A stretch of 55,842 nt of DNA from Gracilaria domingensis (Eukaryota > Rhodophyta > Florideophyceae > Gracilariales > Gracilariaceae): contig VCMS01000308.1 in the NCBI GenBank assembly GCA_022539475.1, forward strand, positions 76,889 through 132,730, written 5' to 3'. A model generated the notes under the pieces. The model was not told the DNA's origin. It ran no database searches and saw nothing but the letters and a program-made list of their open reading frames with translations. This document shows positions 6,730-49,399 of the stretch, piece after piece; positions within the stretch are counted from its first letter, which is position 1; every line of letters starts with the position of its first letter. The position numbers and the translations under genes are program-made.

Positions 6730-7047
6730 GATGGAGTTGGATTGCGCCCGAATACGTCTATAAAGGTCGTAGAAGCACTTATGAAGGAAGGAGTTGTAGA
6801 CATGTTATTGTTGATGACGGTGGAGCCAGGGTTTGGAGGACAGGCGTTTATGGAGGGTGTTCTTGATAAGGTGCGACATGCAAGGGAGTTGTACCCAAGA
6901 ATAGGGATACAGGTGGATGGAGGTATTGGACTGAGTACTGTGAAAGCAGTAGTGAAGGCCGGTGCAAACATTTCAGTTGCAGGATCTGCCATCTTTGGCT
7001 CGAGTAACCCAGCTCATGTCATAGCTGGTTTTCGAAAGGTTGGTTAG
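6730..7047 (+). pseudogene. Ribulose-phosphate 3-epimerase, C-terminal fragment, left copy
   Basis: About 105 residues beginning GVGLRPNTS, preceded by an AG that would serve as a 3' splice site (ATTAAAAG then GAT). Family hallmarks are the VDMLLLMTVEPGFGGQ block with the catalytic-loop Gly/Pro motif, IQVDGGIG with the second metal-binding Asp, and a final AGANISVAGSAIFGS phosphate-binding block. The enzyme interconverts ribulose-5-P and xylulose-5-P in the Calvin and pentose-phosphate pathways. The first 120 or so residues, including the N-terminal metal ligands, are absent from the arm. The same truncation is present at 49400-49717. Unless an unseen distant exon exists, this is a gene fragment. 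Confidence 0.8.
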
Positions 7048-7089
7048 AGATAGTAGCATAAATTTATTGTTTATTACATTGTTACCTTT

Positions 7090-7400
7090 ACGTGTTATCA
7101 CAACTAAATTCTCCGTCTCCATTGGAGATGTATTTCTCTTGTATGACAACCGGGAAAGGATGTGAGAGAACATCAATATATCCCCAGTGGACGCTGAGAG
7201 GGAGGATGAACTACTCTACGTGCTATCATTGTTACCCATCCGGTGTCGAGTGGTGACATATTTTTTTTTGTCACAACCCACAAAGGATGTGACGGAAGAA
7301 GAACATGCCCCCAGTCGAGACAGAGGGTGAGCAACTCTAAGTACAATCACTAGTCCCTAGCTTGCCTCCACTGGCAATATCTTCCTGTTTTGCTATAACC
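7090..7400 (+). repeat. Two diverged tandem units (about 130-150 bases each)
   Basis: Two imperfect direct copies follow each other: both contain a CACAACC/GACAACC start, AAAGGATGTGA, an ACAT-CCCCAGT block, GAG-GGATGA/GGGTGAGCAACT and a TACAATCACT/TGCTATCATTG block. The units are non-coding and present in both arms (right copy about 49060-49370). A T-run inside differs in length between the arms. Confidence 0.55.
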
Positions 7401-7583
7401 ATCGAGTGGGGTTATGGTGGAAGAGAAAAATATCGCCGGTCGAGGCGAGGTGGGTGGGGACTATGTGAAGAGGGGACAGAGAGATGGCGCTTAAATAGTG
7501 GAAGGTGCGGAGGTGTACAGTGGATGTTTTGGCGGGAAATGGGATGAGGGAAACAGGGACAATCATGGTGCTGGATATAGCCC

Positions 7584-8684
7584 GTGTGGTTGGACAGTGG
7601 GGGTGGACAGCACAGTTTAGCTCGATTGCACTGTATCGCAGCGGAAACTTCGATCCAACTACTACTTCTTTTTCTGAAGATTTCGAACGGATACGTGAAG
7701 GATGAGGAGCTGTGGGTGCTGTTGGAGGGGAAGGAGGTACCGCAGACGCCGTCACCAAAGCGGGAAGAGGACGTGATTACGGCGGCTGGTCGGATGTCGC
7801 AGAAGAAGGAAGTGGCTGAGGAAGGAAAGAAGTGTGAGGCGAGGAGAGGGGATGGTGATGAGGTGGAGAAGGGGGTAGAATTGGAGGTGGAGGGGGTCGC
7901 AATGGAGAGAAGGGGTGCGGTGCATCTGAGTCAGTTAGAGGTTGGAGACCAGATAGGGAGTGGGGGCGGAGAGGGTGACAGGGAGATGCGGTTTGTGGGG
8001 GAGATGAAGGCGAGGGTGGGGATGTTGGGGTTGGTGATGAAGGAGCAACTGGACGATGGAATTGTGGAGATTGTAACGGAAATGGGCGGTGTGGTGCTGA
8101 GTGGGGGTGGTAGTGGTGTTTTGGTTGAGGCGATTTCGAGCCTGCGGAATTCGTTGTCGGTATTGGGAGTGGAGATGAGAAATCATGTGTATGGGATAGT
8201 GGAGTGTGCGGGAAGGGAGGTTGGAGAGTTGCGGGAGGAGAATAGGGTTCTGAACGAGAGGTTGGACGTGCTGGAGAAGGAGGTGAAGGAGCTGTGCAAG
8301 AGGCAAAGATTGGTGGAAGAGGAGACGGTGAAAGGAGGTGTGGAGGGAAAGACGGAGAAGGGAAGTGTGAGAAGGGTGGCGGTGCAGAAGGGGTCTCCTG
8401 TGACATCGAAGACAAAGGGTGGTGGGGTTGGGGATGGGAAGAGCCGTCTGAAGAAGAGGCGTAAGGAGATGAAGAAGGTGGTGGAGGAGGTGCCGCGGGA
8501 GGGAGTGGGAGCTCCGGTGGTGACTGGGTTTAGGAGTGCGGCGGAGGTAGCGCGGACTGCGAAGGGGATTCTGAGGGGACAGGAGGAGAGAAGGATGGGA
8601 GGGATTGGAAGCCGTTTTGGGGCGAGGCGGGTATACGAGAAGGGGGAGAGTTGTGCACCTGACTTCTACAAAATGAACGCGTGA
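7584..8684 (+). CDS. Lys/Glu-rich coiled-coil protein, unknown function, left copy
   Basis: An open frame of up to 366 codons; the first ATG in frame is at 7794 (MSQKKEVAEEG), and conserved-looking sequence just upstream (KDEELWVLLEGKEVPQTPSP) suggests an upstream exon or a longer product. The middle has heptad-like helices (VGELREENRVLNERLDVLEKE). The C-terminal third is very basic (SRLKKRRKEMKKVVEE). There are no catalytic motifs or membrane spans. Codon use is strongly purine-rich on the coding strand (GGAG/GAAG), so the antisense strand is also open, which is a composition effect. A filament, scaffold or chromatin role is possible but unsupported. The right copy is cut short by a single G-to-T change. 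Confidence 0.55.
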   Translation: MWLDSGGGQHSLARLHCIAAETSIQLLLLFLKISNGYVKDEELWVLLEGKEVPQTPSPKREEDVITAAGRMSQKKEVAEEGKKCEARRGDGDEVEKGVELEVEGVAMERRGAVHLSQLEVGDQIGSGGGEGDREMRFVGEMKARVGMLGLVMKEQLDDGIVEIVTEMGGVVLSGGGSGVLVEAISSLRNSLSVLGVEMRNHVYGIVECAGREVGELREENRVLNERLDVLEKEVKELCKRQRLVEEETVKGGVEGKTEKGSVRRVAVQKGSPVTSKTKGGGVGDGKSRLKKRRKEMKKVVEEVPREGVGAPVVTGFRSAAEVARTAKGILRGQEERRMGGIGSRFGARRVYEKGESCAPDFYKMNA

Positions 8685-9047
8685 TGGGCGAGAAATGGGT
8701 AAATAGCGGGGGTAGTGTGGACTGGGAAGAAGTGATGGGATGATTGAGGTGGGATGAGTTGCGATTGGCATTGCAACATGGGAGAAATTGGAAACGCAAA
8801 CTAGCACAAGTGCAGTTTTGAGAGAGGGTCGCGGAAAAGAGTGAATGGGGTGGTGCGGCGAAGTAGAACCTCTACAAAAACTAGGGGACCCAAGCACTAA
8901 ACTGCGCGAAATGGAATTTAATATTCCAAAATTTCTTAATTTTTTGAGTGCCAGCCTCTGCTACCCCCTCGCGCGCCTCAAATAGCCCCAAAACTAGCTT
9001 AGTTTCCAAAGCGAACAGACTATATTCCACTTTGCAGAACACAGACG
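8685..9047. other. Inner end of left arm, no gene seen
   Basis: Non-coding in all frames beyond short runs. It is nearly identical to 47399-47760 reversed. The final 40 bases (CTAGCTTAGTTTCC to ACAGACG) mark the arm edge. Confidence 0.5.
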
Positions 9048-9431
9048 TACCACCCAAATGATCACCAGGGAGTCTCTATGGCAGTCGTCCTCAAGAAAGG
9101 ACACTCTGACGCCACTTATGTCTTCTCATGCTTCCAAACTTGGTCTGCTCCTACGGAAATCTTACATCTTTCCTCTGGAAACTTAGCGCTCATGAACATT
9201 TCGTTTTCAGTTGCTGAAGTTCACCTCGCTTGGGAAGATCTTCTGATCGGAAGACCTGCATTGAAACACCTGGGGTAGACACATACAGTCTGCTCGAAAA
9301 TAACAGGTTCGCTCTGAACGGCTCCGATTGTTCTGAAGTCGGAAACCACACCTCTCAAGCGAACCATGGTTTTGTCAGGCGACTTATGATCGCATGTACC
9401 AAACATTCTCGCCCTGGCACCTCTCCGACAC
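9048..9431 (+). mobile_element. Ty3/gypsy pol fragment, 5' part (protease end/RT start)
   Basis: The plus strand encodes a run ending LIGRPALKHLGVDT and YSLLENNRFALNG, typical of the C-terminal side of a gypsy-type retropepsin and the linker to reverse transcriptase. The fragment begins exactly at the edge of the inverted repeat. It stops at 9431, where a copia element starts. Joining 9431 to 24952 keeps the frame (SPTLLVPDRPLVVYHT), so both pieces are one gypsy copy. There is one frame change between the first part (to 9278) and the second. Confidence 0.75.
9427..9431. repeat. Target-site duplication GACAC, left
   Basis: Five bases immediately outside the 3' LTR of copia element A; the same five bases follow the other LTR at 24947-24951. 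Confidence 0.85.
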
Positions 9432-9785
9432 TGCTGTGGTCGGTTGGGTTGGGTTGTATTTCGTTCTGGAAATTCCTATACCTTCTAAAGCAATTGTATT
9501 TGGGCAGAACCCTGCCAAAAACTAGGGTACGTAGGACTTGTGTGTCTAATGTTCTATCGCAAGCTGCAGGGGGCGGCACATGAAAGATATCATATCAAAA
9601 TGACTGTTTCGTACACGTCAGGTAAGATTTGTACACACATCATCTCTCGTATGTTCATAACGCTATGGCAGAAGACACTTCACTGCACACAGTTGTCTTC
9701 ATAATTCCATAATAGAATGCCCCTCACAGCATCTGGAGACGTCTCGCAACACATCTGAGTGCTCAATGGCATACTCATACCAACA
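9432..9785 (-). repeat. 3' LTR of copia A
   Basis: About 354 bases. On the minus strand it starts TGTTGGTATGAG and ends CCACAGCA, giving the usual TG...CA ends with a short inverted TGTTG/CAACA-type terminus. It aligns over its full length with 24596-24946 in the same orientation, with many substitutions, so the insertion is old. Confidence 0.9.
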
Positions 9786-9796
9786 TCCTCCCCATG
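9786..9796 (-). other. Polypurine tract of copia A
   Basis: Reads ATGGGGAGGA on the minus strand, immediately 5' of the 3' LTR, the position where plus-strand DNA synthesis is primed in LTR retrotransposons. Confidence 0.8.
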
Positions 9797-9809
9797 TCAT
9801 TTGAGACAC

Positions 9810-10061
9810 TCATGACTTGAAGTCACATAGCTGTATATGGCAGTTCTGCTTCATAGGCTTTGTGAAGATATCTGCGAGCTTCTCAACGGCACCAACGTGT
9901 TCGAGGACTATAACACATTCATCCACGCCTTCCTGGAAAAAGTGATATCGCAAGTCGATATGTTTGGCTTTTCGTCCCCCTTCTGCCCAATCCAGAACAT
10001 TCGTTTTATCTTCATAGATAGGTGTCGGGTTCTCCACTGTTACAAGCTCTGTTTCGAGCAA
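9810..10061 (-). pseudogene. Copia A RNase H, C-terminal end
   Basis: About 83 residues containing GGRKAKHIDLRYHF, EHVGAVEKLADIFTKPM, the hallmark end of Ty1/copia polyproteins. Upstream (10062-10541) the reading frame is lost; only scattered RNase H-like pieces are present there and no other gene is seen. It ends 25 bases before the LTR. Confidence 0.85.
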
Positions 10062-10541
10062 ATATTACTAACCTATTTCATTTGCTTAAAGCATTCCGAG
10101 AGCGAGAAGTATTCTGCTTCTACCGTAGAAGTCTCAATGCATGTCTGCTTCAATGCTTTTCACAAGATCATATTTCCGAACACTAAGACAAAAAATACGT
10201 TTGTTCACTTGCGATCGGTATCACCTCTGGCCAAGTCTGCATCAGCATCTGCACACAACGTGCGGTTTCTCAAGATACGTATGCCATAATCTCTTGTGCC
10301 ATTGTGGTAGCGCGGAATTCTCTTCAAGACTGCCCAGGGTACCACAGTTGGGTTCGCTCACGCCCTCAAGAGTATATTAACTGCAACATATATATCTGGC
10401 CTGGTACCGGTAGAAAGGTATAGGAGGGATTGACTTTTTTCTTGGCACAAGAACGTCAACGTAACGGCCCTGCGTTCGAAGCACAAGCAGGATTGTATCC
10501 AGTACTCATCTAAGTGGTAGCAGGCTTAGAATAGGTCATGT

Positions 10542-11047
10542 TTAAGAGTGCCAATAATCTTTCAACTGCCTATCGTTGATGCAATTGCATAGCTTCTGTT
10601 CCATGTTGGATGTATATAACGAAGAAATTGTCATTCTCAAACACTCTCTCATCTCAAGCTTTGCTGACAGCATTTTCTTCATGTCAATGATACTCGATAA
10701 CTCATACCCGAGTACCAGAAGTTCATCAACATACAGTAGAATCAATAGGTGAGGTCTCCCCCAGTTCTTGTAAAAGAAACAACTTTTCGCCAAGCACTTC
10801 TTGAGTCCAATGTTCACTAATCTTTGGTGAATATCTGGCTCCATATTAATTTGGATTGTTTTAGCCCATATATTGATGTGTCCAACTTCAGCACCTGCCC
10901 CTCTCTGAGACCAAGGTCTAGTCCTTGTAAACGTGACATGTACACATGTTTAGCCTTTCCGATTCTTCCATTGAAGAATGCGCAACTCACATCTAACAGG
11001 TGTACTTTGAAAAAAAACTGACATGCCGACATTAGTGCCAACCACAA
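10542..11047 (-). pseudogene. Copia A reverse transcriptase fragment
   Basis: Two overlapping frames. The first carries VHLLDVSCAFFNG and LDTSIYGLKQS, the copia RT blocks that normally read DVKTAFLNG and KSLYGLKQS. The second carries LLILLYVDELLVLG, where the catalytic YVDD box is YVDE. A frameshift separates them near 10820. The upstream RT part (11048-11366) is not recognisable. This copy cannot make a working enzyme. Confidence 0.85.
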
Positions 11048-11366
11048 AGTTCCAAGTTGAACAACAGGGGAGTAAAATTTTCAATCCTTCCTTGCGGGCA
11101 TCCCTTTGCTACAAGGTGCACTTTGTAACTTGCAATTGATCCATCATCATTGTTGTTTTGTGCAAACACAAATCCAGAGTCTCTGACAGGTTTTCTAACT
11201 CAGTTTGCATTACATCACTGGTCTCCATTGACTTTAGCCAATAGGGTTATTCATCAATACCTCTTTTCCACATTTTTCATTCAGATGTGTACCACGCCTC
11301 CTGTAGGTTTTCAGGGGCAGCACTTGTTCGAATCTCTCTCTTCATTATCCTGATGTGTTTCGTTTC

Positions 11367-12370
11367 TCAGAAATGATTCGGAGGCCGGGGCTGGCGGTCG
11401 GGATAACGGCGCTCAGGATAATTTGTTAAGTATTCTTGTATGTTGGAGGTCATCGAGAATTTTTCTGACTCTGCATCAGATGGTTGAGATACATCTTTAT
11501 CATTCTCGCCTCCATCTTCCTTGTTTCCGTCTACTTCATCATCATTTCCAGCATTTTCCAGGCCCACCCCGTCTTCATCGTCAGTGATATCCTCACTTGG
11601 GGTTCCAACCTCAAGATCTTGATCATCTTCTACTTTTGTTCTTATTGTCAGTGCGTTTGACGCATCTTCAGTAACACTCAGTGGCAATTTTCTTAAGGAC
11701 CTATACAGCGTCCTTCCAGGAACTGCATTCTCATTGATACTAAAGTGCATTGCAAACGTAATTTGTCCGCTCCTAATGTCGAGAACAGGATAGTTCTGGT
11801 GCAGCATTCAGCGTAGTAGGTAGGATCCCTCAGCGAGCTTTGCTATCTAATTTCTTTCATTCAGCGACATGGACCCATACTTCATAACCGAATGTACTCA
11901 GTGAACTGATGTTGGGAATCTTTCCTGTAAGGGCCTCATAGGGTTTCTTACCACCATTCGCCTCACAGCTAATGGTGTTCATTTTCCTCTTTGCTGTGAT
12001 GTCTGCTTCAGCTCAGAATCTGTGGGGAGGACCGGAATCCCGCAACATTGTACGAACCATTTCCATTGCCGATCTTTTGAGCCGTTTCGCAACTCCGTTT
12101 TGCTTCGGAATACAAGAAGCGCTATTCTCCCAACATATTCCTTCATTAGATAGGTACTTCCTGAATGCAACGAACTCAGGACCACTATCAGAGTAGACAC
12201 GTTTGACTTCCCTTTCCGTATGTCTCTCGAACTTCAACTGAGAACATCTAAACTCTAATTTCAGGTCCATCTGACGCTTCAAGAAGCGTACATCTTTGTA
12301 TATTGACTTCTTGTGAGTAAAGTACACGAGGTACAGGTAACTACTGTTATTATTGTGAGTTCCAAATTGA
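11367..12370 (-). pseudogene. Copia A integrase, core and C-terminal part
   Basis: The 5' piece (about 11979-12370) continues the integrase split by the nested element: THNNNSSYLYLVYF, then YSDSGPEFVAFRKYL (second catalytic Asp block) and CIPKQNGVAKRLKR (normally P-x-x-NG.AER, Glu region). The 3' piece (11367-11807) has YPVLDIRSGQITFAMHF, the beta-rich integrase tail, then a long Asp/Glu-rich linker and YPERRYPDRQPRPPNHF. A gap and frame change separate the pieces at 11808-11978. Confidence 0.8.
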
Positions 12371-12372
12371 TA
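12371..12372. repeat. TA target duplication, left side of nested element
   Basis: TA precedes TGGGAACAC; the matching TA is at 22811-22812. Keeping one TA joins the copia integrase in frame on the minus strand as SKRYQFGTHNNNSSYLYL, which has the length expected for the family. Confidence 0.75.
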
Positions 12373-12408
12373 TGGGAACACAATATAGTGTGGCCCACAC
12401 TAACGCAG
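12373..12408 (+). repeat. Left end of TNP2 element
   Basis: TGGGAACACAATA followed by the palindrome TAGTGTGG-C-CCACACTA at 12386-12402. Just outside, 12350-12383 also forms a hairpin (ATTGTGAGTTCC with GGGAACACAAT) across the junction. Confidence 0.65.
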
Positions 12409-14093
12409 GTACGGGAAGAAGAGACATGAAGTTATTGCAGAGGCAGCCCAGACCAGGCAGTCTCGGCAAACAGAGTAGACGCGAAGAAACAAATCTCATG
12501 ATTCGGCTTTGATGTGTGCGTTGTGGCGCATTCAAAAACGCGGAATGATGCGACAGAAGATCTACGGTTGCAGAAGAAAGCAGTTGGAATACGCAATGTT
12601 TGATCAGTACGAAGACAACAGGGTAGACCTACTTGTAGAAATGGACCGAACATTACCGGTACTGAACCCCGGGAGAAAGAAGACGAAAACCATGGTCATA
12701 TCGCAAGAAAACGGTACACGCAGGGCAATGTGAAACACTTTTGGACTCTACGACGTCAGTAACCCGGCAGTACAAGTATCGAAGTGTTCATGAACAACGA
12801 AGTAGTTAAAATACTGAGACTGATTGAGAGACTCGGAACTTCATTGACCTTTCATATGAGGGTAACCGCCGCAGATAGAAGCAGATAGGGTGTGTGAGAC
12901 GAACATGTTAAAGTACTGGGTACAGGCGGAAGTATAGGAAGTGAAAGTGAAATAGAGAGTGCACTTCAGCAACCTGCGAAAAAAAGAAGAACCAAAACCA
13001 TTTGTGGCGCATCTAGTCCACCGCTTTGCAATGCTCGAGAGCAATAAGAACGTTGGACAGTACCAAAGTTAGTAGTGTACACCGCAGCCAAGAGAAATTA
13101 CATCACTTGCGTTTTACCACGGATCGATTCCAATATTTGGAGAAACACTCCTGCCTTAAGAGAGAACAGAACGTGCATAGCGATGTTTTGAAGACAGCAA
13201 TCGCAGAGCAGAAGAAATACCTAAGAAACATACATGGTATTTCAATGCATGTAACATTCACAAGGATTGAAGTTGCTTTTCGAGCATGTCATGCTCAACG
13301 TAAACGACTGGACGGCAGAGAAGCGCTCTGAAACCGATCGAGTAGTGGCAATCGGGTTATCCAGAACTGAATATGCAGATGTAACTGTTTCAACAGCATA
13401 GCAGGCACAGCAGATCTAACGGTAACGTCCTTATGCATTACAGCTTTCCCGTTCTCCCTAAGTACATGCCAACAGTTCGACGAAGTCAGAGAGGAATTGG
13501 ATTGAAAGTCATTACGGTCGTGTGCGATCACTTGTGGTGAGAGATAGCTACGATTATGCCCGAAATGTTAACGCATACGGCGGAGCCACGTTTCTCGAGT
13601 CTGGATTATTAGTACGACCGCAGAACAGTTGAAACAGCGAAAATGCATCCAAAATGGTACTATTCGGAACATTACATCGTTCAGAGTTGCCGAAAAGAAG
13701 CGTAAAATCACTTGTTACGGTGCGGTACAGATATGAACGACATGGAAAGAAACCATTATCTGCCTCTAAAAACGTCTGATGCAAATGAATAAAGTCGGTG
13801 AGGGACGAAGATGACGCTCGTGTCTCCAGTGGTGCACTCCTCCAGCTCTGACATTGAAGACTAATTTCAAGTCTCTTTGCAAGCGAAGCAAAAAGCTGTA
13901 AAAAATGACCATAAATTACATTCAAATAGTTTTTTGAAACCGAGCATCACTCACCACCGTAAATCTACCATGCTTTTCACCAATTGTGAGCTGTATTTTC
14001 GTACTCATCACCATTGGAAGCCACTACGACAAAACGGGAAACCCTCGGTGTAGCGAGAAGTTGAGAACTGCGCAGTAGGCTTGGACTCCTCAT
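12409..14093. other. 3' side of TNP2 transposase, no identified gene
   Basis: Short frames on both strands, the longest at 13554-13925 (minus), with no family resemblance. CACTA-type elements often carry a second, fast-evolving DNA-binding gene beside the transposase; one could be here but cannot be shown. Confidence 0.4.
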
Positions 14094-15689
14094 TTAGCTA
14101 CGAAAGGCCCTGGAGACGATAATGTCAGCCCCCTCATCATGATTTCCACCTTTTCTTGACCAGAAATACGTATCTTGCAATGGATCGATAACATACGTTC
14201 TCTTCGCTGCTCTTCTTCCGATTCCTACACTTTGTTCAATCACTGAAATCTGGTTTGATAAGGCTGATATACTCTCTACAGAGAGTTCTCGAAATACCTT
14301 ACCCTCACTCTGAAACCCTTTCCCAAAAAGTTGTCCTTGTTCACCTCTTTTCAAATCTTTTGATGCCCAACGGATGAGGCAAAGCAGACTCCGATTACCT
14401 GAGACAGTGTGCTCAAAGAACAACAAGATCCTCCCGTAGTACACATGAAGTTCATGCTGATCAGATCCCTTAAACAGAGCGGCTGTGGAGCGAGAAGACC
14501 TGGTTCTCTCAGAAAACGTTTTCATCATGCTGCAATGGTACATCGTTACATATTCGTCTTCAGCTTTTTCATCGAGAAGGCGTGACCATCCTGTGACTCC
14601 ATTTTGATATTGTACATCTGGTCCAAGAAGTGGAGTTGGGGACAAGTCGGTTGCCTTCTTGTTTCGTTTGTAGTAATTCTGCAGCAATTTCTTTTTATCG
14701 CATCCTATCTTCTCCGAAAGATCCCGAAAGCTGAAGAACTTGCAGGGATGACAAAATTTAAATCCATCCTGCTCCGGCTGTGAACTCCGACACACAAGAC
14801 CATTTCTCTCAGGAGCGGACTCTTCATCGAGGAGAGGAATGCTAATGTCTTTAGCTAAGCAATAGAGCTTGACAGCTTCAGTGACTTTCACACTCTCAAT
14901 GATAGACTCGGAAAACCGATACGTCGAGTTGCATTTCCTGTTTAGAAATCCTACGTAGTTCTCAATGCTCCATTGAGAGACCAGAGAAAGTGGACCGCAA
15001 CTCCGAATAGAATCCTCAAGGTGCAGTAGTAGATGGTACACATACTTGCAAAGATAATGGTTCTCGTGTTGGTATTTGAAATAGGTTCTTGAGAAGTGGA
15101 TAAAGAACCTGCGAAAAATAAATCCGACCCGTTTCAAGTCGTCATCAGAAAGGCTCCAGCGACACACAGTCTCGCACAGATCTACGAAAAGTTTCCAACT
15201 GGCTAATAGATGCGCTGGGATCAGTCCATGAAGAACAACCAGACTGAGATGTATTACAAACGCTTTCCATTCCGTTGCTTTCCATCGCTTGCGCTCATCG
15301 AGGCCTCTGGGACATCTGATGCGATCGTTATACCACTTCCCTGCTCCTATTGGTCTTTGATTCAATTCGTCTTGCTTCATTTTTGGTTGTAGTACCGATA
15401 GAGTAGGCACACATCCTTTCTCCCCAAGCCATATGGAAACGATGTCTGGGGCGATATTCTCGAACAAGAGATGCATGGTGTCTATTGAAAAACTTTGAAA
15501 CGGTGTTATCAGCCATAAGTTTTCAATCAACGGACTGAGCGAGGTAGATTGTATCCCAAGGTCTTTGCATCTTTGATTTAGTTCTTGTTTCGTCAGCTTA
15601 TGCGAGTTTTCTCGAAGCTCGTGCACTGCACCCAAGAATGTGTCGTAGAGAACTAAAAGGAGCAGACTCTTTCACTCCTCGCGAAGTTG
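14094..15689 (-). pseudogene. TNP2-like (CACTA/EnSpm) transposase, C-terminal part
   Basis: An open frame of at least 513 residues, starting without an ATG at a TGA near 15690. The recognisable blocks are SIDTMHLLFENI, then RCPRGLDERKRWKATEWKAF, LVVLHGLIPAHLL, a helical core, YVYHLLLHLEDSIRSCGPLS and SIENYVGFLNRK. These follow the order of the TNP2 transposase C-terminus and its adjoining DUF4218-type region. The N-terminal TNP2 part with the first acidic residues is missing, because ABC1-kinase sequence begins on the other strand at 15638. The element is therefore non-autonomous. The long intact frame suggests that loss of the 5' end was not followed by heavy decay, or that the piece is recent. 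Confidence 0.75.
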
Positions 15690-16214
15690 TCCGTGTTAAT
15701 GACCGCCAGCGTGCTGTGGATTTTCTCTCACTCAGCGTGTGCTCAGTAAGACATCCTCGTGCCCACTCAGTTTCTCTCCCACTCTCTGCGATTTTGAGCT
15801 CTACCTTCGACCATTTGCATGTTTTCGCTCAACAATCTAGCCGGTCTTTGGAGTTTTGGAGACGTGCATTAGCAATATGGTTATCTTTCAAGATAACACA
15901 AGCGAACGTTGCTATACAGAGTCCATATAGGCCACTCTCTTGGCCTCGAAAGGCCTGGTCCCATCAACATGAGAAAGCCGGCAAAGTGCGTGTCAACAAA
16001 AGCACCGGACAGTGTCAGACCGTCCAAAGAGTTTCGGGAATTATAACCTAACTGTTTCTTTCGTTATACCCGTAGATGATGTTAACGTTGTGCACGGAGA
16101 TGAAATTATGTGTTCTAAACTATTCAGAAGAGGTCTTCTACGTTCACGGGTTTTCTAACGAGCGCGTATATTTCATTGACACTTTCTTCTATAAGGGGTT
16201 CTATGTTAAAGCAG

Positions 16215-16292
16215 GTAGGTGCATATTCGAACCATGCGACTCATTAGCATCATATTGAGCAGAATTCTTACTCGCTTACGCACTTTTATCAG
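16215..16292 (+). other. Intron in ABC1 kinase
   Basis: 78 bases, GTAGGT...TATCAG. Splicing joins YVKA-G-QIIALQ and recreates the KAGQ motif. Confidence 0.8.
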
Positions 16293-16954
16293 GTCAAATT
16301 ATTGCTCTTCAGGCGTTTGTTCCTAAGGTCATCAGGGATACAATACGCGTTCTTCAAGACAATATGCCACCTATGGATGCTCCGACAGCTCGCCAGGTAA
16401 TCGAAGAAGAACTTCATAAGCTAGGTCTTGCTATGGACGTCTTTGAATCTCTGGACGTCCAGACTGTGCTAGGAAGTGCAGCATAGCCCAAGTGCATCGC
16501 GGTCGTCTTCGGAACGGGAATGTTGACGTCGCTGTCAAAATTCAGTATCCCAACATTGAAAGTCTAATGATGGCAGACCTTGCCAATTTCCGCTTACTTG
16601 GCGAGATTTTGCAGCGTACAGAGCTTAAATTCGATCTTGTCCGACCGGTGCAAGAACTCTCACGTCAGCTTGCTTTTGAATTCGACTTCAAGAACGAAGC
16701 GAGAAACATGGCTGAGATTCGGTACGCACTGCGCAAAGTCAAACAAGTGTCTGTGCCTGAAGCTATTCCAGGGCTTGTGTCGAGAAGGTTGCTGGTCATG
16801 ACTTTTTTGGACGGTATCCCACTGACCAAGTTAGATGGGGCTTTAGAGAAAAGAGGGAGACGGACAGTTCGCCTTGTTGGACGTAGAATCATGAAGAACC
16901 TGACTGCTTGTTACGGAAAAATGATTCTCACCGATGGCTTTTTCCAAGCTGACT

Positions 16955-17050
16955 GTACGTGTCTGATTTCTTATCGTCATGCATATGTTATTCTTATTCC
17001 TTTCTTAACCTTTCGTATGTGTGCGTATCTTTTTCAGTATATGTTTGCAG
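16955..17050 (+). other. Intron in ABC1 kinase
   Basis: 96 bases, GTACGT...TTGCAG. Splicing joins GFFQAD-C-HPGN, the phosphate-binding segment. Confidence 0.8.
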
Positions 17051-17547
17051 GTCACCCAGGAAATATAATAGTACGGAACGACCGGGTTGATATTGGACTC
17101 CTGGATTTTGGTCAGACGAAACGCTTCTCCAATGAGGCAAGATTGGCTTTTGTGACACTCGTCGATGCAATGGCGAGAAAAGATACAACAGGGGTAGCTA
17201 CAGGCTTGGAGGAGCTTGGCATTCGCGTCGGTCACAAACCAGGGCGAGAAAAACGAAGAGGTCTTGCAAAGCATGCGCTTACATTAGAAGGAAAAATGGC
17301 GTATACGATGTTTGACACGGCAACGGTCCCTGGTGTTAGTGACAACCCTTTTGGTGAGGAAAGTACGATGAAGGAGGGCTCTATTGATGACCTTCCCAAG
17401 GATTTGTTCTTCTTACTGAGAACCATGCAAATTCTGAAGGGCTTATGTCATGCAACATTTAATTTTGACTTTTCCATGATCTCGTCTTGGGGACACACGG
17501 CTCGAGCGGAGTGGAACAGGTCGAATTGGTGGAGATTGTCGTTTTGA

Positions 17548-18467
17548 GCTGGATACTGTCTTTTTGTACCACAGCCGTTTAGTCTTCTTCTTTCTGCCTA
17601 CGAACAGCTCTTCAACCACTTCTAAAGCGCGAAGTTCACGGCTATGTGATCTCTACGAAGCGCTATCGGAGAGAGCCCTGTGGGCTTTAACACACGCAGT
17701 CTTGTTTCGGACTCAGATTCACTCTTTTTCCCGTTTTGAGTTCCCAAAATTGAACGGGCATTTCACATATTCATCTTACCGCTAACGACGTTTTTCACTG
17801 GTTTCTTTCTCAACTATTAAAAGTCAGTCAAGGAGAGAGGATTCCACTGCACTTCACTGCCTTCTTCGCAAGCCGCGCCAATGCTATCTATTGTTTCGGA
17901 GAAGCAAAAGGACCGTCGGTAAACGTTGACACACCCAAGGGGTGAATACCCTCGACACTTCGCGGTGCCTTGTTATCCGAAAACTATTTTTTACCGATGT
18001 CCACGTCAACTTAAGAGAGATGTGGACGTTTACAAACCACATTTACTTCAATTGTCGAACCAATCACATGATCCGCTGAAGTGAACGACTATCAGAAAGT
18101 TGACGGTCTTGGCAATTGCATTTGCCCATGTGGACGACCATCCGATGCAGACAAGAAGAATGTCCAGTTGTATAAGTGTATGTCGTAAGGAGCTCAACGT
18201 GACATCAACGGATCGTGCAAGTGCATGGGACATGAAAGACATCAAGTTTGGGTGCCCATCTTCTCTTCCGAGAATGTCCAGAGTGCCAGAGTATATAGTT
18301 AACAGGTTCGCAAGCTTGTCCGGTCTCTTTATTCCCTTGCACTAGTAGCGGAGTGCCCAGAAAGCGTGTCGAAAAAAATCTGTAAAGAACCCAGAAAGAT
18401 TCGAATGGTTACACGCGCATAACAGAGAAATAGTTCTCCGCGATTTTCAAGTTTCCGTTGCATCAAC
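17548..18467. other. Gap between ABC1 kinase and IspE
   Basis: No convincing gene. It may contain the 5' exon or transit-peptide part of the IspE gene, but no family match is visible. Confidence 0.4.
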
Positions 18468-19731
18468 ATGTATCCTTGCTTTATCTCTGCATTCAGAAAC
18501 AAATCCTTTCTACAGCGTAGAAACAATGGGCAATCGAAAATATGCCAATTATGGCCCGTGATGACCGCGTCAAGGTCACTTCCAGACGAAAAATCCGTGG
18601 TGTCGCCGGATGAATGGGACCTGAGGTTGGGCAGCCCATCAAAGATAAGCCTCTTTCTTCGCGTCGTTGGAAAACGCGCTGACGGTGAGTAGAGAAACGC
18701 AATAAGCAAGCGACCCTCGAAGAACTTCGATCGGTATCGCAAGTTTTCTAATTTGGTTTCACTGACATATGAATCTCCAGGTTTCCATGAACTTGCATCT
18801 CTGTTCCAGTCGATAAGTCTCCATGACACATTATACTTCTCAACTAAGACAGAGAGAGACGCCAATCCGGAGCGGAATTCTCTGGAATGTGAGAAATCAG
18901 AAATCCCTACCGATTCTTCAAACCTGGTGCTTCGAGCAATCAGCAAATTTCGTGAGAAGACCGGCATACAGAATTACTTTCGCTTCCGCCTCGAAAAGCG
19001 CGTCGCCCATGAAGCCGGCCTCGGAGATGGCTCTGCAAACGCCGCAACCGCTCTGTGGGTCGTCAATCAATTGTGCGGCAAGCCATGCACAACTGACGAA
19101 CTGGCGCAGTTTGGAGCGGAATTCGGATCTGACATCTCCTTCTTCCTGTCGGAGGGAACTGCTTACTGTACCGGTCGTGGTGAGAATATGGAACGATACC
19201 GCGATTACCCCCTCAGTCGTTGTATATTGTGAAACCGGAAGAGGGACTGTCCACCGCGGAAGTGTTCAAAAGCCTCGACATGTCCGAATATTCCGACAAG
19301 AACCCGCGTGAACTGCTGCGGAAAATGGAGAAAGGGGTGCTCTTTGCGGATTTTGTTAATGAATTAGAGATTCCTAGTTTCCGCCTGATGCCCAAGTTGA
19401 AAAAACTGAAAGAAGACCTGTACAAAGCAGGCTTTAACGTAAGTTTCACAACCATCTGAAGCTTTCCGGATGCTTCAACCAAAAGATACACCAAGAATGA
19501 AGAGTTTCTAACGGAATTTCCTTTAATGGTTCTGCTTTCCTCACAACACAGGTGGTTTTGATGAGCGGTAGTGGCACGTCATTCTTCTGCCTCGGGCAGC
19601 CTTGGAGTGACGACTTCATGAAAGTGTTCCCAGCCGAACAAAATGTGCAGGTGTTCAAGTGCTTCTTTCATGGTAGCCGATATGCCGATATGTGGTATTT
19701 CGAACAGCCGGCATTGACTCCAAAGAAATAG
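18468..19731 (+). pseudogene. IspE, 4-diphosphocytidyl-2-C-methyl-D-erythritol kinase
   Basis: Three exons with GT-AG introns at 18685-18780 and 19439-19551. Exon 1 ends SKISLFLRVVGKRADG, exon 2 starts FHELASLF and contains the GHMP ATP-binding loop HEAGLGDGSANAAT and FGSDISFFL, and exon 3 begins VVLMSGSGTSFFCLG. IspE phosphorylates CDP-ME in the plastid MEP pathway. The first ATG in the exon-1 frame that leaves a short leader is at 18561; the transit peptide is uncertain. One base is missing near 19213, so the exon-2 frame ends in LSRCIL while the family sequence resumes as SLYIVKPEEGL in the next frame. It is intron-bearing and sits inside the TNP2 element. Confidence 0.88.
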
Positions 19732-19816
19732 TAGGTGATATGAGTAGTATGTCGAAGAACAGCGACACGAATGGGGAGGTGATTGAGAATATATACTAGG
19801 GGCCTTGTACACGCAA

Positions 19817-20794
19817 TTACTTGACGAAATCGTTAATGGCGCCGCAAAATTGATCCGGCATCTGAGAATGTCTGAGATTGGAGCCAGTGGCCGGCATCCG
19901 ATGTGATGACCAGTTTTGTGTTTGGAAGCAAGGAGTTGAACGTACGCATAGCTTGAAATGGCACATACTTGCTGTTGCCGCCTCGAATGACACATGTAGG
20001 TCATTTGCAGCGAGGCCCGTCCTGTTGTGGAAAGGCCATAATACTGGGCATAGAAGGATAAATAGCGTTCAAATTAACTCTCCATCGATACTTTGTCGCA
20101 GCGTTTCGTTCGGAAGTGAGATTAGTCATGAGGAAGTTGCGCACCGCATCGGATGTGAGGCAATTTGCTGACAGTTGTCGATCGACGTCCTCTCGCGTCT
20201 CTACGCTAGAGAGATCGACGTTGAGCATGGCGCGACTGGCGGGAAGGGAGTCAGAAGGGTCGTTCGTCGGTCGGTACTGAATTGGCGCAATGTCCACATC
20301 GATAAGCTCAGAGACCAGATGGGGATGTGGAAGTGCGAGATGCATGGCCAGCTTGCCGCCCATGCTGTGCCCAGTTACGGTCGCTTGCTCTATTTGACGC
20401 TGGTCGAGAAAGTGAAGCAGGTCGGCAAGCATGGTATCGTACCTCATAACTTAAGGCAAAGATACGTGCGGCGATCGCCCATGGTTGCGAACATCGAGCG
20501 CAATCTTCTCGCGTTCAGGCACTGCACATGACATTGTTCATCAGTGAGCAGGATGATGCATGGGCGACGCTAGTGCCGGTCGAAATGGCACGTACCAAAG
20601 CCGGGGCGATTGAGCAGCGAACGGTAGGTGGACTCGGACGCCAGGTCTCCGTGTAGCACGACGACGGGCGGCGCATCGGACGCAGCTGCCGGAGTACGAT
20701 GTGGTACGGTGACGGAGTGGAGAGAGACGGGTGTAGGAGGAAGGGAGCAGAGACGACGGGCGGAGCAGAACAGCGGAGCAAGGCGTGGGTGCAT
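19817..20794 (-). pseudogene. ABHD11-like alpha/beta hydrolase, copy 1
   Basis: The start is ATG at 20794 with a Ser/Pro-rich leader. PPVVVLHGDLASESTYR gives the oxyanion HG motif. A 74-base GT-AG intron lies at 20522-20595. ALDVRNHGRSPH, MRYDTMLADLLHFLDQ and GHSMGGKLAMHLAL (nucleophile Ser) follow, with a terminal SDAGHWLQSQ (catalytic His). These match the ABHD11/YbfF esterase family. An in-frame TAA sits near 20449, where copy 2 has TAC, and the frame shifts near 20000 and again before the C-terminus. It ends in NDFVK. It is the tandem twin of the gene at 21259-22208. Confidence 0.8.
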
Positions 20795-21258
20795 GTTGCT
20801 GTGAGGTACTAGAGGTTATACTGTAATGGATGATGGATACTTGAGCGGGGTTGCTTGAAGTGCAGAGGAACCGCGGGCGAGGACAAAATCTTTTTGGTGT
20901 GGTCTTATGACACACTTACAAGTGATGTGTGGATTCCACACGTCCAAACTGTGGACTGCACATCTCGTGGACAAAAATCCATAAAGCAAACGCAACTCGG
21001 TTGACTTGGGCATGGGGTTGAACATCATGTTCTGGTTCTGCAGATTTTGCAGCCTTCGTGATCGAGTCTGAAAGCATCGTAGACTGCGACAAAAGTCGCA
21101 GGCTTTATGTGGGTGCTAATTAGCCACAGTACCAAGGATAGAACAACACATCCATGACACGCGCCTCCAAAGCAATGGCAGATACAGTAGGTGCTGCGAC
21201 GACCTACAACACGATCGCGGAGGTGACTGATAAATAGCGAGGGCGTATTCACACACAG
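20795..21258. other. Spacer between tandem hydrolase copies
   Basis: No gene is seen. It holds the upstream region of copy 1 and a block rich in TGTGGA/CCACA words (20930-20960). Confidence 0.4.
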
Positions 21259-22208
21259 TTACCTGACGAAATCGTTAACGGCGGCGCAAAATTGACCCGG
21301 TATCTGAGATTAGAGCCAGTAGACGGCATCAGATATGGTGACCAGTTTTGTGTTTAGAAACAGGGAGATGAACGTACTCATTGCTTGAAACAGAACATGC
21401 TTGCTGTTACCGCCTCGAATGAAACATGTAGGCCTTTTCTAGTGACGTCCATCCTGTTTTGAAAAGGCCATAGTACTGGGTAAAGAAGCATAAATAACAT
21501 CCACACTAACTCTCCATCGATACTTTGTAGCAGCGTTACGGTCGCCAGTTAGATTACTCATGAGGAACTTGCACGCATCGGATCTGACGCCGTTTCTCAG
21601 ACCACTGTCGATTGACGTCCTGGCGCTTCTGCACAGCGGAGAGATCAACGTACAGCATGGCGCAACTGTCGATGAGGGCGTCCGCAGGGTCGTTGGAGGC
21701 TTTGTACGGAATGGGCGTAATGTCCACAACGATGAGCTGAGACACCAGCTCGGGGTGTGAGAAAGCAAGATGTATGAATAACTTGCCCCCCATGCTGTGA
21801 CCATGTACGGTGACTCGCTCTATGTTACGCTGTTCAAGAAAGTGCAGCAAGTCAGCGAGCATGGTGTCATATTTCATGACGTACGCGAATGTAACGTGGG
21901 GTGATCGGCCATGATTACGTAGATCGAGCACAAACGTCTCGTGTTGAGGCACAGTACATGACACACTAAGTCAGTAGCAGGACGTTGCGTGCACGACGGC
22001 GCTGTGGGACTGGAAAATACGTACCAAAGTCGGGATAATGGAAAAGCGAACGGTAGGTGGACTCCGACGAGAAAACACCATGTAATACGACGACGCATGG
22101 GGCCCGGGTGGCGGGTGTCGGCGTGCGAGGAGGTATGGTGAGGAAGTGGAGGGCGATGGGGTAGAAAGGGACGGAGCAGAGCAGCTTGGCGAGACCGGCG
22201 CCCATCAT
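21259..22208 (-). pseudogene. ABHD11-like alpha/beta hydrolase, copy 2
   Basis: Same layout as copy 1: VVVLHGVFSSESTYR, LDLRNHGRSPHVTFAYVMKYD, GHSMGGKLFIHLAF, VVDITPI, and a C-terminal block matching copy 1. The intron donor GTACGT is kept, but the acceptor that reads GCAG in copy 1 reads ACTG here, so normal splicing would fail. A frameshift near 21600 ends the central frame. The two copies differ at roughly a fifth of positions by eye, so the tandem duplication is old. Confidence 0.78.
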
Positions 22209-22733
22209 GCCCACATGATACTGCGATCACAAACGATGCCGCAAGGCAGAGCGTTTTGCAGATGACGCGGATTTGGAGAGGGACCAGTACGTATGGAAGT
22301 CGGGCAGCGTGTAGGGCGCGTCCGATGATATGCAAGGGCATAAGGTGGCGCAATGCAGAGCGCTGGATGTGGGGGAGATAGACTCGTCCCGAAGGAGCAT
22401 AGAAAACGGGCGCAATAGGAAACTGGGGTGAGAGAAACGCGATTAAGGTGAGAACAAGAAACTCGAAACGCACGAAGATTGCCATTTCTCATTCGAGACC
22501 TCTTCATTTTCGTTAGCGCTTCATCGATTTGCATTGAGCATTCATTTATAATTACAACACTTCTTTGCTAGATCACTTGCGACAACAATTGCCACAGCCA
22601 ATTGAAAATCTGTTGGAACGTGTCCAAACCCTGTTACAGTGAGTAATGAACAAGCAATGAGCATTTAAAAAAAGGCCAACATAATTACAATTTTTTAAAC
22701 ATTAAACGACATAGAGTTTTGCCTGGGTATGTG
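22209..22733. other. Upstream of hydrolase copy 2
   Basis: An open minus-strand stretch starts MAIFVRFEFLVLTLIAFL (22485), a signal-peptide-like hydrophobic N-terminus, and runs into the hydrolase region. It could be a leader exon, but no family is recognised. The rest is AT-rich. Confidence 0.35.
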
Positions 22734-22810
22734 CCACAGTAGTTTACCCGTAACTAAATTACTGTGGGTTCAGAAATAGTGTGGCATACACTAATAACAG
22801 TAGTCCCCTG
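22734..22810 (-). repeat. Right end of TNP2 element with hairpins
   Basis: The terminus on the minus strand is CAGGGGACTACTGTTAT, then the near-palindrome TAGTGT-GGCAT-ACACTA at 22777-22793, mirroring the left end. A further hairpin CCACAGTA...TACTGTGG spans 22734-22767. Confidence 0.65.
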
Positions 22811-22812
22811 TA
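22811..22812. repeat. TA target duplication, right side of nested element
   Basis: Pairs with TA at 12371-12372; see the copia reading-frame argument there. Confidence 0.75.
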
Positions 22813-24595
22813 CCTTTTGGATCCGATGCTTGGCGTACGGAGAGGTCCGCACATATCAGTAAAGATCAAGCCGCCAATCTTGGCGTCCCGTCTACTTCTG
22901 TTACTAAGGTTTCTGCGTATCAGATTACTTTTAACACAAGGAGTATATTCTGATCCAACTGGTTTCTCCATGAGACCTTATCCATGAACTGTGCTTAGAT
23001 TAGACATAAGGAGTATCTTTCGTTTCCAAACGTGTCCAAGTCTTTCATGCGAGAGTGGTATTCCAATAGTCTCCCTTCGCGCAGCACAGGAAATAGGAGG
23101 AGCCGCTCTACCCCATACCCGGTACACTCCAGTTTTCTTCGGTACCCTGATAACGATAATTTCCTCCTGAATGAAGCAAAATGATCAATCGGAAGATATT
23201 CTGCACCCTTCGTCAGTCAGATCTGAACAAGAAATAATGTTACATTATACATCTGCGACAGAAGACACACCTCCTGGGAGTAATTGTAAAGAGTGTCGGC
23301 CTTGCTGTTTCGCACTAAGCGCAAGGTCTCCTTCTTTAGTTGCTACCACTCGCCTAGCATCAACCAAGACGATGTATTTCGGTTATAAAGCCGAGAACCG
23401 GTGTTCCATGTCCCCGTCTTCTACTATGTGTGCTTTAACTCTGGAGTATATTATGAACTGATAGTCTCCTTCATGTGAGATTGTGGAGCAAACAGGATCC
23501 GATATTCTGCGCTCGATGCATCTCATAATGAGCCCGGAACCCCTTACTATGAATGACACCCCTATTTTTGTTTACCTTTTAGACGAAGTTTCCAGGAACC
23601 TTTACAGGTGAGTATGGGAATTGGCTCAAAGAAAAGAGCAGATGCATAACTTCGTAGCCGACGTGTAGTGTAGATATTCGAGGTGTATCCGCCGGGGTTG
23701 TTCACTGGAACGCTGGCACTTGGTAATACACGTGTTCAGACCTCGAGAGGTGCACACCACGACTGCAGCTAGTGTTAGATTAATTCTCGGTAGATTCCTA
23801 TATAGGCTCGACCATCTGGCCCTAGAATCCACCAAGTAAACTGAACTGAGTAACGTCCTATCTCCCAGGACTGGGATATATATATTGTTGCCTACGTCTG
23901 TTCACTACTCCTTCGGGAGGGTGACCACTACTGGTCTCGACATATCTACCCCTCCGGGTACCTAAGAAGCCAACGCTTGCACCTACTATTTCATTTCTGA
24001 TGTTGTTCCGATATAGACCTGCGGCTCCAAAGCTTGAGACCAGGATTTTGATCTGCTCACTATTCGAAACTGGACACCCCATTGCTTCCAGTCTTGAAAA
24101 CAAGGATTCAAATCCATCAACATGATCCGAAATTTTCGTTCCTTCTGTGAAACGGGTTTGGTGCAGCTTAGACTATAACTGTACCCTCGTTGCCGTCTTT
24201 TCAGTCGCATACTTCTCCCGAAGTTTATAATACATCACAAACGGGTTTCTTTTTCAGAAGCAATGGCCCGGAGCGGTTTTTCTCCCCTAGATTGCACCAG
24301 ATACATGAGCGCTTTCGAAAGCCTCAGCTTTACATTCTCTGAAAGCGTTTCCATGCTTTTCTCACCAACCATGTCTTCTAGAACGACATTCAGTATTTTC
24401 TTCTATTCGAGAAGAGCTTCGATTATTATCATCCTGAGGGTAACTTCCTTATGTTTCTTTATATTGAAACAGGTGAACTTCTGAACCGTATCTTTTACAA
24501 TCGTGGACAGAGTAGCAGAAGCAGGTTAATAGGAGATAAGTAAACAAATGAGCTGAACTAGAAGTCCGAGCGCCAGTGAAGCGAGATGATACGAC
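22813..24595 (-). pseudogene. Copia A gag, protease and integrase start
   Basis: Reads right to left. A gag-like helical block SLFSRLEAMGCPVSNSEQI lies near 24100-24040 (UBN2/gag type: EGTKISDHVDGF, then a LEAMGCPV segment). The zinc-knuckle and retropepsin regions are degenerate at 23840-23050. The integrase zinc end and core start are at 22971-22813: CVKSNLIRRNLSNRSRRD, GLIFTDMCGPLRTPSIGSKRY (first catalytic Asp in FTD). The integrase stops at RY where the TNP2 element is inserted. Several frameshifts and stops are present. No clear primer-binding site was recognised beside the 5' LTR. Confidence 0.75.
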
Positions 24596-24946
24596 TGTTG
24601 TGGTCGGTTGGGTTGAGTTTTCTTTCGTTCTGAGAAGTCCTATCCCTCTTAAAAAAATTGTACTTACGCAAAACCCTGCCGAAAACTAAGGTACTTAAGA
24701 CTTTTGGTCAAAGCTCTATGGCAAGCTGCAGGAGGCCACACAAAAAGTTATTGTATCAGAGTGACTTTTTCGTACACTTCGCCTAAGATTTGTACATACA
24801 GCTTCTCTAGTTTGTTTATAACTCTACAGCGGAAGATACGTCGCAGCAAATATTAATCTTCATAGTGCCATACCAGAAGACACCTCACAACACCTGTAGA
24901 GCTCTCGAAGCACATCTGAGTGCTCAATAGTATACTCATACCAACA
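24596..24946 (-). repeat. 5' LTR of copia A
   Basis: About 351 bases, minus strand TGTTGGTATGAG...CCACAACA. Partner of 9432-9785. Confidence 0.9.
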
Positions 24947-24951
24947 GACAC
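24947..24951. repeat. Target-site duplication GACAC, right
   Basis: Matches 9427-9431 outside the other LTR. Confidence 0.85.
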
Positions 24952-27574: not shown

Positions 27575-28879
27575 AGGATTTAAAAGCTGCTCCTTTATAT
27601 ATATACTCCCAAGTTTTAATGTCTGTCGCTAACTCAACTCCGGGCAGACCACTTCCTCTCTCTCGACGACTTTATCCATCCATGCCTCTTTCGCCTCTCT
27701 TCCTCCCCTTCCGTCGTCGCTAACCGTATCTCCTGTTTCGTACTTCCAACACCGTTTGGCACAGTCAATGGCACCTTGACACGACCTTTTCTCCACAATC
27801 TCTCCTTCATCGGGGGCCCAGTCTTCCGTCTTCTTTGCTTTTCTTACGTTGTGCTATCTTCTATTGAGCTTTCTAGCACCTTGTAACAGTTCTCAATATC
27901 CCTACACAGCTACAATCCCTGAGTGAACGTAAACTGTCTTTGATACTTGTTTGCTAAGAGCCTTATTTTCTTTCGCAAGGTTTTTAATTTCGGTGGACCT
28001 TGGATACAGGCTATTTGACAGGTTTCTGTGATTCTACGCTGTGTTTTTCACCGAGCCGCACTATCATCTTTACCCTTTTAGTCTGATACTCCCCAGCTTC
28101 TGGTGTTCTTTTCTGGCGTTGGTCAGCACCCGCGTCATTTTGCTGAGAAATGATGTTTACAAGTAACTGTACTTTCACCATAATTTTGAGGTGCATATTG
28201 TGTCTGCATAAAGAATGATTGATTCGCACAAGCTCTAATTTCTGATACACAACTTTTACTACACTGAGTCTGATTTCAAACTTGGAAGTTCTAAAGAGAA
28301 CTCTTTCAATACGCTTGCGGAAAAGTAATCTTTTTCCATTTGTTGCGCTTCAATACGACGATGGATATCTCTGTTTTTTGTTGGCTTTGAATAGGTCTTT
28401 TATGATTTTGTTGGGCTATCACGCTTTGAAGAGTGGAAAACATTAGCAAAATAGCGTAGTCAGTATTTTGGCTTTCACTGGAAGAGGACAACGATAAAAA
28501 CTACCTCGAAATTGAGTGCTTCAAATTAGATTGGCCTGGGAAAAGGCTCGGAGGCCCGCGCAGGTCATGGCATATGGCGATGTATGTGTTTGGGACCGTC
28601 TCCCATACGGGATGATTGGAGTGGGTTATCGAGCCTTTCTTGGTGGCATTAGCCGACCAATCCCCTTCATACCAATTGCAAGAAATTATTGGTAATTAGG
28701 CGTGGGTAGGGAGGCCCTAAGACCACTTTTGCTTCGTAGCTTGAACCCATGAATTTTACTTTGTGATTTGAAGTACGTTTGTAGTAGTGGTCACTATACG
28801 GTTGCTTGTCTTTCAGGAACTTCGAGAGCAGCTTCCTTTGAAAGCTTGTCAGAGTCATTGAGTCACGCGCTTCCGACCA
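27575..28879. other. Decayed coding or intergenic stretch
   Basis: Holds the broken Lys/Glu-rich minus-strand pieces mentioned above (27580-28250), a Gln/Ser-rich piece at 28306-28491, and a TATA-like run at 27594-27606. No gene can be called. Confidence 0.3.
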
Positions 28880-29970: not shown

Positions 29971-30245
29971 CTCAGTAAATCAACTGAGTGGATGACGTGC
30001 TGCGGTACTGAATTTTATTTGAATGTTTGTACTTGGTTTGTATTTGACGGTTTGTGCTTATGTATGCGTGGCGCCCATTTAAGTTTGTATCTTTGTTTAC
30101 ATGGCGTCCGCTCTAGTTTGCATCATGTTGCAACACTTGGTTTACATAGAGTCTGTACGCTTGGACGTGTGTCTATATAAGACCCAGGGTGCTCTTGGTT
30201 GCATGGCGATCTCCAAGCCGATTCAATTAAGCTTTTCTCTCTAAG
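29971..30245 (+). repeat. 5' LTR of copia B
   Basis: Starts CTCAGTAAAT and ends TCTCTCTAAG, without the usual TG/CA ends in this alignment. It contains TATATAAGACCCAGGGTGCTC, a probable TATA box and transcription start region. It aligns with 34549-34824 with clear divergence (roughly one in eight bases by eye). Confidence 0.88.
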
Positions 30246-49370: not shown

Positions 49371-49399
49371 TAATAAACAATAAATTTATGCTACTATCT

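Follow-up and report, generated by a model that had tools for sequence, protein, structure and literature searches.

How did pieces of four host-type genes (an ABC1 kinase, IspE and two ABHD11-like hydrolases) come to lie inside an interrupted copia-like element of the red alga Gracilaria domingensis? The genes are found in a 55,842 nt stretch of contig VCMS01000308.1 (C308:76889-132730, hereafter the window), for which we sought homologues across the 77.9-Mb genome assembly. Two transposons have to be told apart at this locus: an inner TNP2-type transposon, Y, and an outer DDE_1/TA-type transposon, X, with the window copy of Y lying within X. Our analysis indicates that the Y family very probably captured a contiguous block of five host genes from a locus on contig C330, and that the window holds a dead, nested copy of Y. 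A first-pass annotation of the window had already proposed gene capture by a TNP2-type transposon, and the uncaptured parental locus on C330 bears this out. It had also proposed a search of the rest of the genome for intact genes and for the element ends; the parental locus and the ends were both found, and the genes of the window proved not to be intact. The load of four genes that it described is present, with introns in ABC1 and IspE and with two hydrolases, but not as separate captures: the genes belong to one contiguous five-gene block, two genes of which are deleted here, except for the second hydrolase (ABHD11-2), which is a separate, older piece.

A probable parental locus for the cargo of Y

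The cargo of Y aligns to a contiguous 8.5 kb of C330, from position 19238 through 27752-27769, with 92.7% identity over 8563 positions when the copy of Y on C274 is compared. The part left in the window is as follows (here and below, strand is given where a feature has one).

15645-21135: remaining captured host block, corresponding to C330:22245-27763; 93.8% identity over 5542 aligned positions

Five genes make up the C330 block: gene A, whose 473-amino-acid (aa) protein has no Pfam match; gene B (DUF5522), which is deleted from the window copy; the ABC1 kinase (PF03109); IspE (TIGR00154, 187.9 bits against a cut-off of 138.7); and the hydrolase, for which we keep the earlier name ABHD11, its Pfam assignment being alpha/beta hydrolase. 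All five are open as far as they were read. A gene with an Octopine_DH domain lies to the left of the block and a protein kinase gene to the right; neither aligns to Y as represented by the C274, C209 and window copies, and C330 gave no match in searches with the ends or the left backbone of Y.

C330 holds the only IspE found outside Y. In the protein search (E <= 10), 10 of 10 matches fell in C274, C330, C114, the window and C18; GHMP-domain matches on C293, C34 and C14 (two) were absent from the results of that search. Hydrolase matches (12 at E <= 0.001) were confined to copies of Y and C330, and the ABC1 search gave seven matches in copies of Y and C330, together with 12 distant relatives at 26-39% identity. 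The nearest named relative of the window IspE, in a database clustered at 90%, is Agarophyton chilense (90% identity across the whole query).

We classify the event as transduplication because donor loci exist elsewhere in the genome (C330 and, for a second piece described below, C26), a copy lies between transposon ends and the block moves with the element: its left junction is common to six contigs, and the right ends of Y lie in distinct surroundings. It is an unusual case of transduplication, in that a whole multi-gene block is carried by a transposase-coding element. An origin by retro-copying was rejected, as introns, examined in IspE and ABC1, are retained in both.

The shared junction and a probable second capture

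The left junction between Y and the host block was followed with a query taken from C209, consisting of 119 bases of Y and 301 bases of the block. Six of the eight matches ran through the junction (C209 itself, C157, C274, C205, C114 and C18), and five of these six contigs showed 75-82% identity to the query. The two other matches were C246, covering positions 1-253, and C330, covering the host side only (120-419).

The C209 copy of Y differs in its cargo. A 3.7-kb piece (C209:34014-37713) replaces the end of ABC1, IspE, the first hydrolase (ABHD11-1) and part of ABHD11-2. The single other match to this piece is C26:298537-301971 (92% identity over 3401/3401 bases), and the C26 edges, at 302157 and 298424, fall inside open host ORFs (open reading frames) with LtrA and WD40 domains. 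At most a few bases are shared at the joints of the insert, which would resemble repair with filler DNA.

Ends, size and coding capacity of Y

By alignment, the left ends of Y lie at C205:86456, C157:126329 and C209:19880, and C383 (46878) and C175 start at the same base. A query beginning at this base gave five matches, all from base 1 (C205 itself, C383, C157, C209 and C175). In four different surroundings (the window, C274, C209 and C114), the right end falls at one and the same base. The termini read CCCAGG(T/C)AAAACT, some copies differing from this by single changes.

Y measures approximately 19-22 kb where it is most complete. The C209 copy is 18.9 kb long; that of C274 extends over 21.1 kb even though its contig begins inside the element, approximately 710 bp in when compared with C205. 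C205 and C274 are identical over 800 bases and, at the left, 97.6% alike over 3.2 kb; such near-identity speaks for recent copying.

On C274, a minus-strand ORF (4633-6366) matches Transposase_21/tnp2 (PF02992, E 3.2e-11, 43.3 bits against a cut-off of 28.6), and it is by this transposase that Y may have moved. Another ORF of the same copy carries a Znf_SCAND3 domain (PF23663), and a charged 426-aa ORF has no Pfam match.

Three nested elements in the window

The window contains three mobile elements, one inside another: a copia-like long terminal repeat (LTR) element holds X, and X holds a truncated, internally deleted Y. The features of the nest are listed from left to right.

9427-9431: left target duplication of the copia-like element, GACAC, 5 bp; identical GACAC at 24947-24951
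9432-9785, minus: copia-like LTR; 79.2% identity (278/351 aligned) to 24596-24946, both TG...CA
10817-12331, minus: part of copia pol, with reverse transcriptase (RVT_2) and distal integrase
12332-12333: left TA target duplication of X; copia relatives end at 12301-12335
12334-12412: left end of X, terminal repeat CAGGTAACTACTGTTATTA...; similar ends on C26, C408, C552, C343 and C7
12413-15643: left arm of Y, lacking approximately 2.07 kb on the left and including the C-terminal transposase segment; 96.5% identity to C274:1354-4590
14094-15671, minus: C-terminal part of the TNP2-type transposase, a 525-aa ORF; no Pfam match, identified by alignment to C274
15643-15645: junction left by an internal deletion, 9.4 kb by comparison with C274 (C274 4590 joined to 14036)
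22182-22727: right end of Y, last bases AGTTTTGCCTGGG; same endpoint in C274, C209 and C114, surroundings differ
22728-22810: right end of X
22811-22812: right TA target duplication of X
22813-24172, minus: proximal copia-like coding region, with ORFs 22759-22977 and 23858-24172 (ORF reading only)
24596-24946, minus: second copia-like LTR, paired with 9432-9785
24947-24951: right target duplication, GACAC, 5 bp, as on the left side

The outermost element (9432-24946) has the LTRs, the 5-bp duplication and the gene order of Ty1/copia, with integrase before reverse transcriptase, the integrase match being below cut-off. Reverse transcriptase was recognized above the Pfam cut-off (PF07727, E 4.6e-14, at 10817-11080), the integrase piece at 12013-12333 gave a weak match (PF00665, E 0.0029), and the ORF at 22759-22977 has no Pfam match.

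The left limit of X was located with window positions 11700-12400 as query. Its 15 matches comprise the window itself, five copia matches on four contigs (C183, C233, C140 and two on C239) and nine X-type matches (C26, C552, C343, C7, C408, C117, C9, C226 and C154). Four of the copia matches extend as far as the junction, ending at query positions 602-636 (window 12301-12335), and the nine X-type matches start at 627-633 (window 12326-12332); X therefore begins at 12334. Elsewhere, the family begins GGTACAGGTGACTACTGTTATTAG..., and its ends recur without cargo as elements of approximately 2 kb on C26, C408, C7 and C552. The C26 copy encodes a 405-aa DDE_1 transposase (PF03184, E 5.7e-17). Like DDE_1 transposons with TA duplication, X thus has both a TA duplication and a DDE_1 transposase, along with terminal inverted repeats (21/26 terminal bases alike between the two ends); in these traits it is pogo/Tc1-mariner-like. 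On C343 (8030-21966), left and right ends of X type lie 13.9 kb apart rather than 2 kb, and could mark either an X of greater length or one that has received an insert.

Searches with the two ends of the window insert separated Y from X. The left-end query gave 14 matches: its part from 40 or 41 to 327 matched C157, C274, C205, C383, C195, C209 and the window, five others covered only the X part (1-39), and two were short (C195 and C18). In the right-end query (25 matches), part 1-228 matched C274, C209, C114, C18 and the window; C224, C586 and C607 matched approximately the last 150 bp of Y alone, and the rest were right ends of X. As Y is found without X and X without Y, the window insert is not one element. 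The matches at C224:105222-105369, C607:2117-2257 and C586:12772-12921 may belong to different transposons whose ends resemble those of Y. C224 and C607 resemble each other over 3.3 kb, and a DUF659 match in C224 is weak and below cut-off.

These results revise part of the first-pass annotation. A large insertion does interrupt the copia-like element, and the right limit (22810) and the TA on both sides were correctly placed. The left limit, put at 12373, lies approximately 40 bp too far to the right. It had been derived from an unbroken copia reading; the open reading 'SKRYQFGTHNNNSSYLYL' across the left junction is accidental, and its residues QFGTHNNNSS are the terminal repeat of X translated as protein. 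A TNP2-like transposase piece is indeed present inside: the region of ORF 14094-15671 is 96.5% identical to the longer C274 copy, in which an overlapping upstream ORF carries PF02992. The description as a single element fails, since ends of X occur without cargo in the 2-kb copies and the cargo occurs without X.

Decay of the captured genes

All four host genes in the window are disabled pseudogenes.

16307-17544, plus: ABC1-kinase pseudogene copy, with intron and a 1-nt deletion; 97.7% identity to C330
18633-18689, plus: IspE exon with SPSK motif; 98.2% to C330
18777-19438, plus: IspE main exon, with a 1-nt deletion (frameshift) and GLGGGS changed to GLGDGS; 97.0% to C330
19552-19731, plus: IspE last exon, read against C330
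19817-20531, minus: main exon of ABHD11-like copy 1, belonging to the captured block, with a 10-nt insertion and two stops; 91.9% to C330, Abhydrolase_1 above cut-off
21259-21961, minus: ABHD11-like copy 2, main exon, older piece, with a frameshift and two stops; 82.4% to C330, Abhydrolase_1 above cut-off

The IspE piece of the window scores 97.4 bits with TIGR00154, below the cut-off of 138.7. Over two exons, the C330 IspE shares 212/238 codons with A. chilense, compared with 202/238 for C274, 199/237 for the window and 195/236 for C114, which has two stops; both compared exons are still open in C274. Relative to the C330 protein, 12 residues are changed in C274, 14 in the window and 18 in C114, of which 8, 11 and 16, respectively, are at sites conserved in C330 and both relatives. 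One site is serine in all three copies and both relatives and proline in C330. The serine common to the three copies fits what would be expected under a single shared origin.

Pooled over the C274, C114 and window copies (codons bearing gaps or stops excluded; C209 and C18 left out for their gap-rich alignments), dS between host and copy was 0.059-0.068 and dN/dS 0.47-0.54; between copies, dN/dS was 0.62-0.75. These values fit mostly relaxed evolution. The two hydrolases differ widely in dS from C330: 0.43-0.44 for ABHD11-2 (C274, window and C114) against 0.08-0.10 for ABHD11-1, and the ABHD11-2 piece of C209 reaches 0.55. ABHD11-2 is much older than the captured block and is a separate piece.

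How the block may have been captured, and the alternatives

We propose that a cut-and-paste Y once took in the 8.5-kb segment of the C330 locus, with five whole genes and their introns. The most likely route would be faulty double-strand gap repair, using host DNA as filler, when an element excised or was broken. Y would then have carried the block to several sites, where the genes decay while those of C330 stay open, and one copy (C209) would have acquired its second piece of 3.7 kb from C26. In the window, Y presumably jumped into X, which sits in the copia-like element, and later deletions would have removed most of X together with two parts of Y, 2.07 kb at its left and 9.4 kb from its interior.

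Several observations weigh against this proposal. The pre-capture state is missing: a search for a cargo-free Y with 800 backbone bases ending 29 before the junction matched eight contigs, none seen without cargo: seven of them recur among the junction matches and continue into host sequence, and C383 breaks off approximately 155 bp short of the junction. The letters of the junction were read in C209 and C274, and match coordinates stand for them elsewhere. The target duplication of Y, GCA (3 bp) on both sides of the element in C209, comes from the one copy in which both ends were read (1/1), and the termini of Y lack the CACTA motif considered below. The protein of the TNP2 ORF found no relative at E <= 0.001 among 7987 candidates scored. 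Between-copy dN/dS below 1 leaves some constraint possible. Finally, the C18 copy is only 84.2% identical to the host, far more diverged than C274 despite the same left junction, a discrepancy that would call for repeated capture, gene conversion or rates that differ between copies.

C18 (129703-153766) appears to be an old copy of Y, with approximately 20.8 kb separating what is left of its IspE from the junction at gene A. It has one ABHD11, which is copy-1-like through the main exon and copy-2-like from around the 5' end of the exon (C330 position ~27111). CpG decay was rejected as the cause of its divergence, as CpG transitions (31/247) show no clear excess over other C/G sites (60/563). 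C18 was also rejected as an independent donor or paralogue, because it has the Y/gene A junction and the right end of Y.

The alternative that survives best, though we consider it unlikely, is repeated uptake or renewal of the block from the same locus, with the older ABHD11-2 giving homology for later repair. The dS of ABHD11-2, far above that of copy 1, speaks for it, as do the chimeric hydrolase of C18 and a C18 divergence exceeding what the shared junction suggests; yet recombination between tandem copies also explains the chimera, and the host may have had a tandem ABHD11 pair when captured. A related and slightly more doubtful idea is that capture feeds itself: the older hydrolase piece might have given homology to the donor, repair might then have brought in the 8.5-kb neighbourhood, and copies might afterwards swap cargo, like C209. 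If so, an element that steals one gene becomes prone to steal its neighbours.

It is improbable that the transfer ran in the reverse direction, with the block assembled in Y and C330 a later deposit. All other IspE copies found do lie in Y, but C330 lacks matches to the ends and left backbone of Y, its flanks do not align to Y and its five genes are open as far as read. In addition, the C330 IspE is the nearest to A. chilense of the four copies compared, and the edges shared by C209 and C26 cut inside open host ORFs.

Still less credible is ordinary segmental duplication or misassembly, with a transposon adjoining by chance. The contig and the window end together, and inverted arms of 8.5 kb lie in the window; against this, the same junction of Y and host occurs in six contigs, five at 75-82% identity to the C209 query, and the right ends of Y lie in different surroundings. 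We dismiss as least plausible of all a single TNP2-type transposon of 10.4 kb, bounded by 12373 and 22810 and carrying four genes: excision of 12374-22810 leaves an open frame and TA flanks both sides, but the outer ends are those of a different family, seen in copies of approximately 2 kb with a DDE_1 transposase, the cargo family has its own ends and copia relatives stop near 12334, not 12373.

Relation to known elements

Elements of the EnSpm/CACTA superfamily have ends that begin CACTA or CACTG, make a 3-bp target duplication and carry subterminal repeats to which a TNPA-like protein binds. Y has the TNP2-type transposase (PF02992, C274 copy) and, in C209, a 3-bp duplication (GCA), the left side having been lost from the window copy. 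Because CACTA/CACTG ends are absent, we term Y TNP2-type and EnSpm/CACTA-like, not canonical CACTA.

Among described elements, Tgm-Express1 of soybean is a CACTA element of 5.7 kb with intron-containing pieces of five unrelated genes, according to the passages seen (PMC1947982). Like Y, it belongs to the CACTA superfamily and carries host gene pieces with introns; it holds fragments of unrelated genes, whereas Y carries one contiguous block of whole neighbours and a transposase ORF. Pack-CACTA and Pack-TYPE elements (PMC13317346; see also PMC8903248) resemble Y in that host DNA between terminal inverted repeat transposon ends is copied and moved. Pack-TYPE elements are non-autonomous and lack a transposase, in contrast to the fuller Y of C274, which keeps its TNP2 and zinc-finger ORFs; the window copy is a deleted remnant. 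For Pack-CACTA, a tandem-insertion model has been proposed (PMC13317346, in the part consulted). A host block between left arm and right end would fit this model as well, which makes it a second possible route of capture.

Enlarged families of En/Spm (CACTA) elements, 16-20 kb in size and carrying 4-5 ORFs, have been reported from the red alga Chondrus crispus (Kojima et al. 2013, cited in PMC6431247). They are like Y in host group, transposase superfamily, similar size and extra ORFs; the passage names no host-gene origin or donor for these ORFs, and the likeness is one of description. This was the nearest case among the red-algal and other titles and abstracts listed, which gave no comparable one; that list covers few subscription papers and is no proof of absence. 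The capture described for such elements, in the portions of the literature seen, is from land plants and mostly of fragments (PMC13317346, PMC1947982). Here, a red-algal family carries whole neighbouring genes, including the plastid-isoprenoid gene IspE, in one block. With a donor locus still readable, both its edges mapped and a second capture in a sister copy, the capture route is directly testable. Gene counts in such genomes may be inflated by transposon-borne copies.

Other features of the window

The inverted arms of the window (568-9047 and 47399-55825) are approximately 8.5 kb long, lie 38 kb apart and show 97-100% identity in long pieces. They carry HAD-like hydrolase ORFs, and the right one terminates close to the end of the contig; the pair is either a genuine palindromic duplication or an artefact of assembly. 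By ORF reading, a second copia-like element occupies 29971-34814, with LTR-like direct repeats that are 86% alike and long pol-like ORFs. A DDE_1 transposase ORF at 39993-40886 is perhaps a relative of X.

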